This document shows positions 23,506 to 31,817 of a stretch of 64,000 nt of DNA, piece after piece (position 1 is the first letter of the stretch; each line of letters begins with the position of its first letter). The position numbers were made by a program, and so were the translations under genes. The stretch is taken from contig NZ_BDAP01000001.1 of assembly GCF_001598915.1 (NCBI RefSeq), positions 1 to 64,000 on the forward strand. Reading direction: 5' to 3'. The DNA is from Williamsia muralis NBRC 105860 (lineage in GTDB: Bacteria; Actinomycetota; Actinomycetes; Mycobacteriales; Mycobacteriaceae). The notes beneath the pieces were generated by a model, which was given only the letters and a program-made list of their open reading frames with translations, did no database searches and was not told the origin of the DNA.

Positions 23506-24171
23506 ATGAGCAACGCAGATCAGCAGTCCGATGTCATCCTGGTGGTTGTCCACCCCGACACCGAATCGGTCACCTGGAATGTGGCCCGAGCGATGAAAGA
23601 GAGCATCGCCGCCGAAAAGCTCACTGCCACAACGTATGACCTGGCGGCGTCGGGATTCGACCCCGCCTTCAACAGCGACGATCTCGCACATTTCCGAGGC
23701 CTCGCCGGGGTCCCTGTGGACGTCGCGGAGCAACAGCAGATGTTGCGATCTGCCGCAGCGGTGGTGTTGGTTTTCCCGGTCTATTGGTGGTCGCTGCCGG
23801 CACTCGCCAAGGGCTGGATCGACCGCGTCTTCACACGCGGCTTCGCCTATGACGATCGAGTCGCCGACGCCCCGAGCGCCATCAAAGGCCTGCATCTGGT
23901 GGCGATCGGCGGAATCGATGAAGGGACCCATCAGCGCCACGGATACAAAGAGGCGATGACGCTGCAGATGATCCATGGGATCGCGGACTACTCGCGCATC
24001 GAGGCGTCGTCGCTCGAATTCCTCTACGACGCAGATTCCGACGACCCGGCCGTTCGGCGTGAACTGATCGCTCAGGCCGAGGTCATCGGCGCCAAGATCG
24101 CGGCGAGTGTGGTCGGGCAACGCGAATCGGCATCACCACAACAGCTTTCGTCTCTCGGGCTATCGACGTAG
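23506..24171 (+). CDS. flavodoxin-fold NAD(P)H oxidoreductase
   Basis: This 221-residue protein is of the Flavodoxin_2 (NQO/MdaB/KefF) family. It has an N-terminal FMN/FAD-binding strand ILVVVHPDTESVTWNVARAM, then VVLVFPVYWWSLPALAKGWIDRVF, the characteristic active-site segment of quinone reductases, and TRGFAYDD. It likely performs two-electron reduction of quinones or electrophiles in the cytoplasm. It is divergently transcribed from a MerR gene, suggesting induction by its toxic substrate. The last 12 bp overlap the 3' end of the convergent lysine-rich gene. Confidence 0.87.
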   Translation: MSNADQQSDVILVVVHPDTESVTWNVARAMKESIAAEKLTATTYDLAASGFDPAFNSDDLAHFRGLAGVPVDVAEQQQMLRSAAAVVLVFPVYWWSLPALAKGWIDRVFTRGFAYDDRVADAPSAIKGLHLVAIGGIDEGTHQRHGYKEAMTLQMIHGIADYSRIEASSLEFLYDADSDDPAVRRELIAQAEVIGAKIAASVVGQRESASPQQLSSLGLST

Positions 24172-24783
24172 CCGCCGGATGGTCAGGAAGATGAGCGCCA
24201 AGAGAACCACGGCGCTGCCGATTTTGACCACCGGGCCTGTTGTCGACGGCTCAGGCAGAGGCAGAGGTTCCGTGCGCTTGAGAGCAGTGAACCGGGCCTG
24301 CTGATCCTCGTCCGGAGTGGACGCCGAGGGTTTCGGGTGTGTGGGTTCCGGTGTCGCGGCCGGGGCGGGAGCGGTCTTGGGAGACGGGGGAGCCGAAGAC
24401 TGTGCCGGGGTCGACTTGGGTGGAGCCGTGTTGCCCGGCTTGCCAGGACCCTTGCGTACCGGAGGCTTCTTGGCGGGTGCCTTCTTCGATACGACGTGTT
24501 CAGCGTTGGCGTGATCGGGTGTGCCGGCGTCAGGGCTACTCTGCGCAGACGCCTTTGTGGGTGGAGTGTGGCCGGGCCCAGCCTTTTTCGCCGGGGCCTT
24601 CTTGGCGGCGGTCTTCTTCGCAACCTCCTTCTTGGGGGCTGATTTTTTCGCCGCCTTCTTGGCGGCGGTCTTCTTCGCCGGGGCCTTCTTCTCAGGAGCC
24701 TTTTTCGCAGCCGACTTCTTGGCCGGCGGGGCGGGGCGCTCGCCCGAGTGATCGGAGTCGGGCTGGGAGTCCGGGTCGGCCAT
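24160..24783 (-). CDS. lysine/alanine/proline-rich protein with C-terminal membrane anchor
   Basis: The 207-residue protein starts at an ATG with AAGGAG 9 bp upstream. Residues about 20-70 are an H1-like repeat of AKK/PAKK motifs (KKAPAKKTAAKKAAKK), as in actinobacterial histone-like proteins. A disordered Pro/Ser/Thr stretch follows. The extreme C-terminus is a hydrophobic helix (VVKIGSAVVLLALIFLTI) ending RRLRR. The layout is that of a tail-anchored protein with a cytosolic, probably nucleic-acid-binding arm. Low complexity makes homology weak evidence. The role is inferred, not known. Confidence 0.75.
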   Translation of the reverse strand: MADPDSQPDSDHSGERPAPPAKKSAAKKAPEKKAPAKKTAAKKAAKKSAPKKEVAKKTAAKKAPAKKAGPGHTPPTKASAQSSPDAGTPDHANAEHVVSKKAPAKKPPVRKGPGKPGNTAPPKSTPAQSSAPPSPKTAPAPAATPEPTHPKPSASTPDEDQQARFTALKRTEPLPLPEPSTTGPVVKIGSAVVLLALIFLTIRRLRR

Positions 24784-24934: not shown

Positions 24935-25861
24935 TCAGCTGGGTGCGGTGGTCCCGAGCCCGGCGGCCAGTCCGATGACAACCGCCATCAACAGCACCTC
25001 GACGATCGCGCGTCGCAGCGATGCCTGTTCGGAAATGCGATGGGTGTGGGCCGAAGGCAGCCACCGCCGCCGTTGATCGGCAGCCACCGCAAGCAACGCC
25101 ATCATGCCCACCGACTTCGCCAGCAGGATCCGGCCGTAACCCGTGGACCAGACCTCGCTGATCGAATCCAACTCCAGCAGGGCAGCGACCACACCGCTGA
25201 CGATCAACGCCAGGACCAGCCATTGCGCGTACCGCGAGAACACGGGCAGCACGGTTGCCCAGCCCTTTCGGCCGCGGACGGTGAGGGCGAGAGCCGCGAG
25301 AGAACCGCACCACCAGCTCGCCGCGAGTACGTGAACGGCGATGAGCAATGCGCCGCCGGTCAGCTGTCCCAGATGCCCGGTGACGGGTCCGATCAACAGA
25401 CCCAGCGCGGCGAGGGCGCCGACGGCTTCGGGCGCGATCAGACTCGGATACCGGATCCAGACCGCGCAGAACAAGGTGACCGCCAGCGCGCACATCGCCG
25501 CGATGAGACCCGCGGTGGTGCCGTTGACCCGGAAGAAGTCGTTGATGCCCACCTCGTGCGGTGCGAGCCCCGTTCGTTCGGCGGCACCCAGCCATGCACC
25601 TACCAGCAGCGACACAGCCCACACCGCAGCGACCACCGATGCCAGACGCAGCACCGGCGGGGTGAGCTCTTCGCCGCCGAGGAGTTTGACGGTGGACAGA
25701 CCGAGCACGGTCATCCCGGCGAGCAGGGCGACGGCCCCCGCGATCGATTCGGCTTCGGGGCCGGCGGGACGGGCGAGCGCCCAGGCCAGCAACAAGCCCA
25801 GCCAGACCGCGGGCACGGCGACGAGCAACCACTCGCGCCGCGCCGCGCCCGCGGTCGTCAC
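24935..25861 (-). CDS. copD: copper resistance/import membrane protein CopD
   Basis: The 308-residue protein has about eight membrane helices and the CopD-family core: GPVTGHLGQLTGGALLIAVHVLAASWWCGSLAAL, containing His residues in and near the membrane, and a later ISEVWSTGYGRILLAKSVG loop. CopD works with periplasmic CopC in copper uptake or tolerance. It is the last gene of the minus-strand ycnI-copC-copD run, 6 bp after copC. Confidence 0.85.
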   Translation of the reverse strand: MTTAGAARREWLLVAVPAVWLGLLLAWALARPAGPEAESIAGAVALLAGMTVLGLSTVKLLGGEELTPPVLRLASVVAAVWAVSLLVGAWLGAAERTGLAPHEVGINDFFRVNGTTAGLIAAMCALAVTLFCAVWIRYPSLIAPEAVGALAALGLLIGPVTGHLGQLTGGALLIAVHVLAASWWCGSLAALALTVRGRKGWATVLPVFSRYAQWLVLALIVSGVVAALLELDSISEVWSTGYGRILLAKSVGMMALLAVAADQRRRWLPSAHTHRISEQASLRRAIVEVLLMAVVIGLAAGLGTTAPS

Positions 25862-25867
25862 TGTCCG

Positions 25868-26380
25868 CTACTTCTTCCGCTGGGGACGCAGTGCAAACGC
25901 CAACCCGGCACCGAACACCACCACGCCGCCCACGATGAACGGCCACACCGGGATTCCTGATGACGAGGAATCGTCGGCGTCCACCGCAGGGCCCGGAGTT
26001 CCCGAGCCCGCGACGGTGAGCTCGAAGTCGAGCTGACCTTCCACCGGATGGCCGTCGGCCGACGTGATCCGGTAGTTGATCAGGTACGTGCCGGTCGGCC
26101 CCAACTCGCGCACCGGGACGGTGACCGTACGGCCGGTGACCGTCGGTTCACCGTCCTGCCAGTAATGCTCGTCCGGCCCGACCACCTTCAGCACGGCGTA
26201 GTTCTTCTGCACCGGCTCGTTGAAGGTGAGTGTGACCGCTGCCGGACCGGCCGCCAGCGGCGCGCCATCGGCCGGATCAGATCCGATCAGCGCCGAATGG
26301 GCCGCCGCGGTCGGTGCCCAGGCCACCGTCGCGAGAACAGTCATCACCAGCGCGACGATCGAGAAGGTCAGACGCCTCAT
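25868..26380 (-). CDS. copC: copper-binding protein CopC
   Basis: From the ATG at 26380 (GAGG 9 bp upstream) the 170-residue protein has a signal peptide ending TAAA, so the mature protein starts with His, as needed for the CopC Cu(II) site (HSALIGSDPADG). The beta-sandwich continues with VTLTFNEPVQ and ITSADGHPVEGQLDFEL, whose DGHPV gives a second copper ligand. A C-terminal helix (VWPFIVGGVVVFGAGLAFAL) anchors it. A GTG at 26395 overlapping the ycnI stop (GTGA) is an alternative start. Confidence 0.9.
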   Translation of the reverse strand: MRRLTFSIVALVMTVLATVAWAPTAAAHSALIGSDPADGAPLAAGPAAVTLTFNEPVQKNYAVLKVVGPDEHYWQDGEPTVTGRTVTVPVRELGPTGTYLINYRITSADGHPVEGQLDFELTVAGSGTPGPAVDADDSSSSGIPVWPFIVGGVVVFGAGLAFALRPQRKK

Positions 26381-26391
26381 CGAATCTCGCC

Positions 26392-27087
26392 TCACTGGCG
26401 TTTACGCGCGAGGGCGCCGATCGCGACGCCGATTCCCAACGCGCCCAGCAAGATTCCGGCACCGGCCAGCCAGCGGGCGGTGTCGTCGGTGCTGTCGGTG
26501 TCTGAGGACGCGGAGTTCTCCGAGGCGGTCTGGGTGTCTTCCTCGTGAGTCGCCGAATCGGCGTCGGCGGTCGGTGCGCCGAGCGTCACCGTGGGCGCGG
26601 GCTTGTCGGGCTCGGGCTGACCCTCGACGGTCGGCTGGTCCCAGCGGACCACCTCACCGTCGGAGTACGTCTGCGTTGCGGCCATGGTGACCGTCTCCTG
26701 CTCCGGCAGGGGCCCACCGGACACCCGGAACTGGAGGAACTCGCCGGGCCGGATGCCGGGGTTGCCGTCGGCGACCTTCCAGGTCACCTCCGTGGCCGCT
26801 TCGGTGGCCGGGTCCTTCTTCACCTCGGCGGTCCAACCGGGCAACGGCTCGGTACGGGCGGAGGTCAGGTTGGGCAGGGCGACGGTCAGTGCGACCGTGC
26901 TGGCGGTGTCCGACTCGTTGGGGACCCGGAACGTGATGACGCCGTAGCCACCCTGGGTGAGACCGTCACCTGCCGCGGTGACGTGTGCCGAGGCCGAACC
27001 CGCGCCCAGCAAACTCAGGCCACCGACCATCGTGACGGCGGCGAGTGACGCACCGAGAAGACGGAAGCGTCGCTTGAACAAAGACAT
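26392..27087 (-). CDS. YcnI-family (DUF1775) copper metallochaperone
   Basis: This 231-residue exported protein has a signal peptide ending ASA. The mature N-terminus begins HVTA, and the N-terminal His is the copper ligand known in YcnI proteins. The DUF1775 beta-sandwich follows (GGYGVITFRVPNESDTAST; LPGWTAEV; FLQFRVSGGPLPE). After an acidic Ser/Asp-rich linker, a C-terminal helix (WLAGAGILLGALGIGVAIGAL) anchors it. It overlaps the copC region and completes a copper-handling operon. Confidence 0.88.
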   Translation of the reverse strand: MSLFKRRFRLLGASLAAVTMVGGLSLLGAGSASAHVTAAGDGLTQGGYGVITFRVPNESDTASTVALTVALPNLTSARTEPLPGWTAEVKKDPATEAATEVTWKVADGNPGIRPGEFLQFRVSGGPLPEQETVTMAATQTYSDGEVVRWDQPTVEGQPEPDKPAPTVTLGAPTADADSATHEEDTQTASENSASSDTDSTDDTARWLAGAGILLGALGIGVAIGALARKRQ

Positions 27088-27174: not shown

Positions 27175-27657
27175 TCAATTCGCCGGTGGACCCCGAACCC
27201 CTGTCCCGCCAGGAGCGAACACCCCGACCAGAGGTCGTAGATGGGGTGAGGGAGGAAGATTCGAACTCGCGAGTTCGGCAACCGGGCCGCCGAGAAGGCG
27301 GCGCACGACGGCCAGGACCGACGTGATCACCCCGTACAGCGAGGTACCGCCGGCGATGAGCAGCGCGCACACCGGGATCGCGATCAGGTGGGTCACCAAC
27401 ATCAGCGTCTGCGACCCGTGTGCATGGGCCATCGGGTCTGCGGTGGCCGAGAGGAGCATGTGCCCGGCGATCTGGGCGCCGGTCAGCACCGCGAGCAGGG
27501 CGAGTGGGGAGTTGAGCCGACGACACAGGGTGGCCGCGACGACTCCGACCAGCAGGAGCAGCAGCATTCCCGCGGAGTCAGGAAAAACGCCTGAAGCCGC
27601 CCCGTGGGCAGCAATTGCCAGCGCCGGGGCGGTCAGGAGGATGGACAGAGCGGTCAG
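27175..27657 (-). CDS. membrane protein of copper operon, likely CTG start
   Basis: The ATG at 27567 would begin inside a helix. Extending the same frame upstream gives 30 more codons with export-signal character (TALSILLTAPALAIAA) followed by HGAASGVFPDSAG. No ATG, GTG or TTG exists before the in-frame stop. The best start is CTG at 27657, with GGAG 7 bp upstream, overlapping the preceding stop as CTGA. Four membrane helices follow, with ADPMAHAHGSQ between them: His/Met residues that could handle copper. A hydrophilic tail ends the protein. It lies 87 bp before ycnI. Confidence 0.65.
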   Translation of the reverse strand: MTALSILLTAPALAIAAHGAASGVFPDSAGMLLLLLVGVVAATLCRRLNSPLALLAVLTGAQIAGHMLLSATADPMAHAHGSQTLMLVTHLIAIPVCALLIAGGTSLYGVITSVLAVVRRLLGGPVAELASSNLPPSPHLRPLVGVFAPGGTGVRGPPAN

Positions 27658-28349
27658 GGACGCACTCCGAGGCGTGCGAGCAGATCGGCGTCGATGGCGG
27701 CCAGCTCACGACTGATGGCGGCGTGCGCACTGCGGCGCCGTGCGGCGGGCATGTGTTCGGCTGCCGCAACAGCGGTGGACAGGTCTGACAGCCGCTGGTT
27801 CATCGTCGACGCGAAGGTCTTGGTCTCGGCGTCCGACGGATGCTTGGCGGTGAGGGTCTGCAACGAGGAGTTCGCACCGGCGATGCGTGCCGACAGAGCG
27901 GCGCCATGGCCGCTGTACTTGTTCAGCTCGGCAACGGGGACACCTGCGCGATCGGCCTGGATCCGGCTGATCTGCTCGCGGGCGGCAGTGCTGGCGCGGT
28001 AGGCGATCGGCACCAGGATCGGCGAGAGCACCTTGGCGACCTGCAGATAGCGCTTGACCCGAGCGGGCGAGAGCACCTTGCCATCGGCGACCGCCTTGGC
28101 GTTGGCCTGCGCGATCTTGACGCTCGCCGAGTTCGTCTTGTCGGCGATCTTCAGTGCACTCTTGTCCGACTTGGCCTGCGCCTTGCGCGCCTTCTTGGCG
28201 AGCTTGCGCTGCTGCTTGAGCTCTTCCTTGGCGAACTTGCGCCCGGACTTGTCTTCGAGGCGGGCTTCGAGCTTGGCCTTCGCCTTGAGGGCCTTGGCCT
28301 CAGCTTTGCGCTGTGCCCGGCTCTTGCGTCCGGAACTGAACAAACCCAT
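27654..28349 (-). CDS. Lys/Ala-rich helical protein (DUF6474-like)
   Basis: From the ATG at 28349 the 231-residue protein is cytosolic and mostly helical. A very basic N-terminal half (KAEAKALKAKAKLEARL; KQQRKLAKKARKAQAK) is probably coiled-coil. The middle segment VLSPILVPIAYRASTAAREQISR is better conserved-looking, with a helical tail. It resembles a family found in mycolic-acid actinomycetes that I recall as DUF6474, but that label is uncertain. Its stop overlaps the start of the copper-operon membrane gene, so the two may be co-transcribed. Confidence 0.65.
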   Translation of the reverse strand: MGLFSSGRKSRAQRKAEAKALKAKAKLEARLEDKSGRKFAKEELKQQRKLAKKARKAQAKSDKSALKIADKTNSASVKIAQANAKAVADGKVLSPARVKRYLQVAKVLSPILVPIAYRASTAAREQISRIQADRAGVPVAELNKYSGHGAALSARIAGANSSLQTLTAKHPSDAETKTFASTMNQRLSDLSTAVAAAEHMPAARRRSAHAAISRELAAIDADLLARLGVRP

Positions 28350-28475
28350 GCGTTGGGGACCTCTCGTTAGCTTGGTCGAGCATCGCCGTCGGCGGTTGAC
28401 GAAATTGTCCTGCAGTTGCGGTACAAGCATTACATAGCGGGGGTACGGCAGGTGCCCCAGATCGGTGAGGAGAGG

Positions 28476-31286: not shown

Positions 31287-31817
31287 ATGACCGACGACAT
31301 GGACCAAGCAGACACCGAGAACGTATTTGATCCCGGTCTGTTCGCGCGACGTCTGGAAGAGCTGTTCCGAACGGTCCCTGGCCCCAACGGTCGTGCCTAC
31401 AGCGCCAAAGCCATCGCCAATCGCTCCACTGAACTGGGCTTTCGTCTCGGTGAGTCCTACTTGAGCCAGCTCCGGTCGGGAAAGGCCAAGTCGCCGTCGT
31501 TCCGCACGGTCGAAGGCATCTCAGCGGCATTCGGCGTCGACGTCCACTACTTCCTGGAAGATCGGGCCGCCCAGCGCACCCGCGACCAGATCGACCTGAT
31601 GCGGCTACAGGCCGACAGCAATGTCCAGCTCGCCGCGTTCCGGCTGGCCGGTCTGTCGAGTGACTCGGTCACCGTGGTCAACGAACTCATCAAGGTCCTC
31701 CGGGTTCAACAGGGTCTGCCCGCCGACCCGCCCGACCTGCTCAAGTCGGCCGAACCCGAATTGGGGCATGGTCACTCGGGACTTCGAGTGGTCGAAAGGC
31801 ACGAAGCCGCAGACTGA
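31287..31817 (+). CDS. EspR-like XRE-family regulator
   Basis: This 176-residue protein starts at the ATG at 31287, with TGGAG 6 bp upstream; the ATG at 31269 is an alternative. The N-terminal helix-turn-helix contains FARRLEELFRTVPGPNGRAY and GESYLSQLRSGKAKSPSFRT, closely resembling the YLSQLRSGN element of EspR, with GISAAFGVDVHYF. A C-terminal helical region (LAAFRLAGLSSDSVTVVNEL) likely dimerises. EspR-type proteins are nucleoid-associated regulators of envelope genes. It is followed 28 bp later by an ImmA-type protease gene, suggesting control by proteolysis. Confidence 0.85.
   Translation: MTDDMDQADTENVFDPGLFARRLEELFRTVPGPNGRAYSAKAIANRSTELGFRLGESYLSQLRSGKAKSPSFRTVEGISAAFGVDVHYFLEDRAAQRTRDQIDLMRLQADSNVQLAAFRLAGLSSDSVTVVNELIKVLRVQQGLPADPPDLLKSAEPELGHGHSGLRVVERHEAAD

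Follow-up and report, generated by a model that had tools for sequence, protein, structure and literature searches.

A 207-residue protein encoded in the window (the whole 64,000-nucleotide stretch of Williamsia muralis DNA analysed here) is probably the Williamsia counterpart of Mycobacterium tuberculosis Rv3852, tail-anchored and bearing an arm of the DNA-binding type; we put the probability of this whole explanation, its mechanism included, at about 70%. This architecture has a precedent in Rv3852, and the novelty, which is modest, lies in the Williamsia and Gordonia members, the wider distribution and an exchanged linker. It is disputed whether Rv3852 acts as a DNA tether, as a helper of Wag31 or as neither, and the Williamsia and Gordonia counterparts, from genera that are harmless, offer a natural comparison, in which the parts that were kept would point to the core function and the exchanged linker to the partner.

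An intact arm-plus-anchor gene in Williamsia

The protein opens with an acidic stretch (MADPDSQPDSD) and continues through a lysine arm and a proline-rich linker to a hydrophobic stretch that ends in RRLRR (Table 1). A sequence-only reading had described an AKK/PAKK arm, a disordered linker and a terminal hydrophobic helix with RRLRR, and counts, hydropathy and AlphaFold2 bore out each of these elements. Residues 19-72 hold 20 lysines, and the protein contains AKK 9 times (mean 0.9, maximum 6 in 10,000 composition shuffles) and PAKK 4 times, the arm being lysine-rich by composition and free of any strict tandem repeat. The highest 19-residue Kyte-Doolittle window reached 2.34 at residues 184-202; in 2,000 shuffles the best window averaged 0.40 and peaked at 1.82. 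AlphaFold2, supplied with a 17-sequence alignment, predicted a single helix at residues 182-206 with pLDDT >90 in its last two blocks, and outside that helix the model was disordered, of low confidence and without secondary structure (mean pLDDT 56.8). No solved structural relative was found with an E value of 0.1 or lower. With the limit set at E = 0.001, Pfam returned HC2 alone, with neither an HU domain nor DUF883.

Table 1. Features of the arm-plus-anchor gene and its neighbourhood (window coordinates)
Feature	Coordinates	Strand	Basis
Arm-plus-anchor ORF, 207 aa, ATG start	24160..24783	-	ORF list, homologues, NCBIfam, hydropathy, AlphaFold2
Lysine-rich AKK/PAKK arm, residues 20-68	24580..24726	-	Composition; weak sub-threshold Pfam HC2 match
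Linker motif KPGNTAPPKSTPAQ, residues 115-128; P121 and P126 invariant (n = 17 sequences)	24400..24441	-	Alignment
Membrane-proximal linker motif ARFTALKRTEPLPLPEP, residues 163-179; F165 invariant, L168 and P173 nearly (n = 17)	24247..24297	-	Alignment
C-terminal hydrophobic helix, residues 182-206	24166..24240	-	Hydropathy and AlphaFold2
Terminal RRLRR, residues 203-207	24163..24177	-	Sequence
CopD, conserved neighbour	24935..25861	-	Pfam and locus comparison
CopC, conserved neighbour	25868..26395	-	Pfam and locus comparison
YcnI-like DUF1775 protein, conserved neighbour	26392..27087	-	Pfam and locus comparison
DUF6474 protein, conserved neighbour; Pfam match starts at residue 28, the ATG of MGLF	27654..28430	-	Pfam and locus comparison
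EspR-like gene, part of the common neighbourhood	31299..31817	+	PDB EspR chains, E 9.4e-11

A protein search returned homologues in 8/8 genomes of the same genus (E 1e-15 to 4e-106), and arm, linker and anchor were kept together in their ORFs (n = 8). Relative to a more distant Williamsia (L165), nucleotide changes at codon positions 1, 2 and 3 numbered 57, 43 and 117, the third position being changed most; the corresponding counts relative to the two nearest Williamsia, 16/2/21 and 13/4/17, are small and less clear. The arm-plus-anchor ORF is thereby confirmed as real and as correctly described by the earlier reading.

Several observations attach to individual copies. In G006 (L004/L083) the arm is split over two reading frames, either by a true frameshift or by a sequencing error in repetitive DNA. 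The Williamsia muralis record L161 encodes a DUF6474 protein identical to that of the window together with an arm-anchor protein 91% identical to it. Record NZ_JNYV01000002.1 (L162), titled Kitasatospora arboriphila, also has an identical DUF6474, with an arm-anchor protein 93% identical, and looks like a mislabelled Williamsia. In the window, the 3' end of the arm-anchor gene overlaps by 12 bases (24160-24171) with a convergent FMN-reductase-type gene (23506-24171, + strand) that lies downstream of it.

Distribution of the family and retention of the anchor

We surveyed 80 named loci, the best 80 among 354 relatives retrieved with DUF6474 as the query and thus not an even sample. An intact arm-plus-anchor ORF was present in 55/80, once in each, and no second such ORF was found at a positive locus in the 1,527,594 bases of the set. 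By record title, the gene was intact in 6/6 Williamsia (L162 included), 3/6 of the deligens/maris/CHRR-6 group of Williamsia, 3/3 Gordonia and 43/49 mycobacteria, and it was found in 0/13 Rhodococcus, 0/2 Aldersonia and 0/1 record titled Acidobacteriaceae. Of the six mycobacterial misses, four are arms that run off the contig end, one consists of gene remains flanking a run of N, and one lies on a contig that ends too early. One positive locus, L238, is counted in the 55/80 and stands outside the gene-order table and the linker-pattern counts given below.

Homologues lacking the anchor had been named beforehand as evidence that would tell against the proposed architecture. No uncut arm gene without a hydrophobic tail was found at this place in the 80 named loci, where lysine-rich ORFs without a tail were otherwise limited to DUF6474 and to an ORF at another position in L238.

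A strict scan of 80 loci drawn from 28 genera recovered 25 arm-anchor genes, in 7/8 loci of the window's genus, 12/12 of the mycobacterial genus, 4/5 of the Gordonia genus, plus a single gene in each of two further genera. These 25 do not include L083, the frameshifted copy from G006, which the strict criteria missed. Two further ORFs near DUF6474, each from another genus, were seen at looser settings only and were left out of the counts. One (L136, about 6992, + strand) has PAAPK instead of a PAKK arm and a C-terminal helix, and is perhaps a diverged relative of the family; the other (L143, about 5664, + strand) is a small protein with a moderately lysine-rich body and a C-terminal helix with a basic end, a weak case.

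The NCBIfam Rv3852 model (NF050153) found matches at 1e-10 in 177/198 genomes of the mycobacterial genus. Inspection of 12 of the 21 genomes without such a match showed the arm-anchor ORF still present in 10, and in the other 2 none was found at slightly looser settings. Members of the family include M. parafortuitum, M. senegalense, M. wolinskyi and M. septicum, all of which are fast growers. The family thus extends beyond 'only slow-growing mycobacteria', and the published statement to that effect is contradicted. For M. smegmatis mc2 155, the accessible text of PMC5433769 reports that an Rv3852 orthologue is absent, and one listed paper, PMC3207917, matches both Rv3852 and Gordonia. A literature search short of most subscription journals returned no match for Williamsia together with nucleoid-associated.

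The linker differs between the two branches

Alignment A2 comprised 17 Williamsia/Gordonia-type sequences (the window, 7 Williamsia, 3 from the maris/CHRR-6 group and 6 from the Gordonia genus); L139, which comes from a further genus and has no detected ATG upstream of its arm, was excluded. Positions M1, K33, P121, P126, P135, F165 and P184 were invariant, and L168 and P173 were among those nearly so. The mycobacterial alignment (A3) held 22 of 45 mycobacterial sequences. The pattern FTxL[K/R] occurred in 16/16 Williamsia/Gordonia members and 0/45 mycobacterial ones, and the pattern AAQAKSTV in 42/45 mycobacterial and 0/16 Williamsia/Gordonia members; L139 had neither. Two sequences of the mycobacterial genus (L244 and L245) combine AAQAKSTV with GSTAPPKSGP, a segment similar to NTAPPKSTP of Williamsia, and may be regarded as the best available sequence bridge between the branches.

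Proposed mechanism and competing readings

According to the accessible text of PMC8233713, Rv3852 ('H-NS') remains on DNA while its C-terminal helix holds it at the membrane, and Rv3852 without that helix goes to the nucleoid and condenses it. The available part of PMC4433263 likewise reports that the lysine-rich repeats bind DNA and that the protein is found in the membrane fraction, and describes the physiological relevance of DNA binding as uncertain, with no matching knockout phenotype.

By analogy, we infer DNA binding, topology, partner and role for the Williamsia protein as follows. With no signal peptide, it would be synthesized in the cytoplasm and keep its lysine-rich arm there, where the arm may bind DNA by charge and with no sequence specificity. 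The C-terminal helix would insert into the inner membrane, with RRLRR at the helix end, and membrane-near DNA would thereby be held loosely at the envelope. A partner probably docks at the FTxL[K/R] motif that immediately precedes the helix, and since Rv3852 binds Wag31, a polar scaffold of the DivIVA/Wag31 type is the foremost candidate. The sequence-only reading had suggested that the protein could tether the chromosome to the membrane, an architecture set apart there from soluble HupB/H1-like proteins. With Rv3852 as the guide, a membrane-anchored DNA-binding arm is indeed the best-supported reading, but this architecture had already been described for Rv3852 (PMC8233713).

The same literature can be turned toward polar growth, with the protein serving as a membrane tether for machinery of the DivIVA/Wag31 type, its basic arm binding acidic proteins, lipid or RNA, and the chromosome not being its main business. 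The C-terminal helix of Rv3852 is dispensable for its binding to Wag31, and the polar place of Wag31 is altered in the knockout, as described in the accessible portion of PMC8233713. Moreover, PMC6155035, in the part available, employs Rv3852 to mark the membrane and states that its function as a candidate NAP 'was disproved', citing Odermatt 2017; the nucleoid role and tether function of Rv3852 itself are disputed. The genome to which the window belongs also has a DivIVA protein, and the best conserved part of the Williamsia/Gordonia-type linker is the membrane-proximal motif. Against this stand the move of helix-less Rv3852 to the nucleoid and the fact that the Wag31 binding comes from Rv3852, whose mycobacterial linker differs from that of Williamsia. 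We consider a mainly polar function possible, at somewhat less than even odds.

A membrane-anchored DNA-binding arm also has to be weighed against a location of the arm outside the cell, where it would bind polyanions in the manner of the lysine-rich tail of heparin-binding hemagglutinin (HbhA), or where the protein would be wall-anchored. RRLRR follows the helix and few charges precede it, which by the local charge rule would favour a C-terminus inside and an arm outside, and would be unusual for an arm-inside protein; the PAKK-tailed HbhA and HupB are also reported at the cell surface (PMC10665949, accessible text). However, a positively charged patch containing a di-arginine is likewise found at the end of the tail anchors of E. 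coli ElaB and YqjD (PMC5525287, available part), and Rv3852 binds Wag31 and DNA (PMC8233713). In addition, the first 60 residues of the window protein contain no hydrophobic stretch (best 10-residue hydropathy window -0.62), so no signal peptide is apparent on the basis of hydropathy, and LPXTG is absent from its sequence. We consider a surface role very unlikely.

Gene order carries the argument for kinship with Rv3852

Model NF050153 matched residues 78-207 of the window protein with an E value of 4.7e-12 and 46.6 bits, below its curated cut-off of 100 bits, a value passed by only 76/198 genomes of the mycobacterial genus too. The C-terminal 67 residues alone gave no match to the model, and in a whole-genome search the best match in the window's own genome was another frame, of 470 aa, at 37.9 bits. 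Since lysine-rich arms in other frames match the same model, membership by sequence profile is not decisive. Comparison of the profiles of the two branches aligned the anchor alone (24 columns), a result that argues against claiming much on sequence grounds. It is gene order that carries the argument.

In the window, DUF6474, YcnI, CopC and CopD lie upstream of the arm-anchor gene on the same strand, and an RNase_H_2-domain gene and the EspR-like gene lie beyond DUF6474 on the opposite strand. Among the 80 named loci, the order DUF6474, YcnI, CopC, CopD, arm-anchor is common to Williamsia loci and many mycobacterial loci, and CopC stands between DUF6474 and the arm-anchor gene in 44/54 tabulated loci that have the gene. 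Closeness to DUF6474 in these loci is by construction, because they were collected through DUF6474. Starting instead from the Rv3852 model, matches lay beside DUF6474 on the same strand, with gaps <2.7 kb, in 18/18 mycobacterial genomes that had both places among the matches listed (of 20; the other 2 had no DUF6474 place among the matches listed). The neighbourhoods differ at their edges: the EspR-like gene has the opposite orientation in mycobacterial loci compared to the Williamsia window, no RNase_H_2-domain gene turned up in the mycobacterial loci compared, and RraA, directly downstream of the arm-anchor gene in many mycobacteria, is not so placed in Williamsia, where its matches fall elsewhere in the loci and on the other strand.

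These data bear on whether the Williamsia/Gordonia gene might be unrelated to Rv3852, a lysine arm and a terminal helix having arisen twice at the same chromosomal place. The anchor-only profile alignment, the difference between the linkers and the occurrence of lysine-rich AKK arms in other frames would allow it, yet two origins would have to produce the same position on the same strand, following DUF6474 and in most cases CopC, a single arm-anchor ORF at each positive locus, similar protein starts (MADPD and MADPQ in the two branches) and the bridging sequences L244 and L245, a coincidence that we regard as highly improbable.

A copper role, suggested by the CopC/CopD neighbours, was rejected as the leading interpretation on two grounds. 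The arm-anchor gene follows DUF6474 in the three named Gordonia loci (L204, L224 and L230), where CopC and CopD gave no match, and the 13 Rhodococcus and 2 Aldersonia loci have CopC/CopD matches with no arm-anchor gene.

DUF6474 was found in 245/251 genomes of the family, and the N-terminal half of the window's DUF6474 protein is lysine/alanine-rich; no paper naming it was found in the literature search, again with most subscription journals outside its reach. It is a possible partner of the arm-anchor gene. On a broader view, which we offer tentatively and hold to be rather doubtful as a whole, a membrane-anchored nucleoid tether would be old in the Mycobacterium-Gordonia-Williamsia lineage and no peculiarity of slow growers, its membrane-proximal docking motif would have been exchanged outside mycobacteria (FTxL[K/R]) such that the DNA arm connects to different envelope partners in different genera, and the adjacent DUF6474 may be its working partner.

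Comparison with known systems

HC2 (PF07382) shares a lysine/alanine-rich composition with the window protein but is not known to have a membrane helix. The Pfam match reached 23.5 bits, below the gathering cut-off of 40. The label 'Histone-H1-like' given in the earlier reading therefore holds for composition only, and kinship with histone H1/HC2 was rejected.

HupB (mycobacterial HU) and HbhA resemble the window protein in their AAKK/AKKA repeats (PMC10665949, accessible text). Their lysine-rich region is C-terminal, as given in the available part of PMC4433263, whereas the window protein has it at the N-terminus and a membrane helix at the opposite end; unlike HupB, moreover, the window protein has no HU or other folded domain detectable by Pfam or AlphaFold2, the latter giving one helix. 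ElaB and YqjD belong to DUF883, to which the window protein has no Pfam match, and YqjD may recruit ribosomes (PMC5525287, available part).

The closest parallel is Rv3852. The window protein differs from it in carrying FTxL[K/R] where the Rv3852 type has AAQAKSTV and in scoring below the NF050153 cut-off, and the gene differs in not being directly followed by RraA. In contrast, both proteins combine an N-terminal lysine-rich PAKK/AKKA arm, a disordered linker and one C-terminal helix followed by basic residues, and both genes take the same place downstream of DUF6474, often with CopC/CopD.
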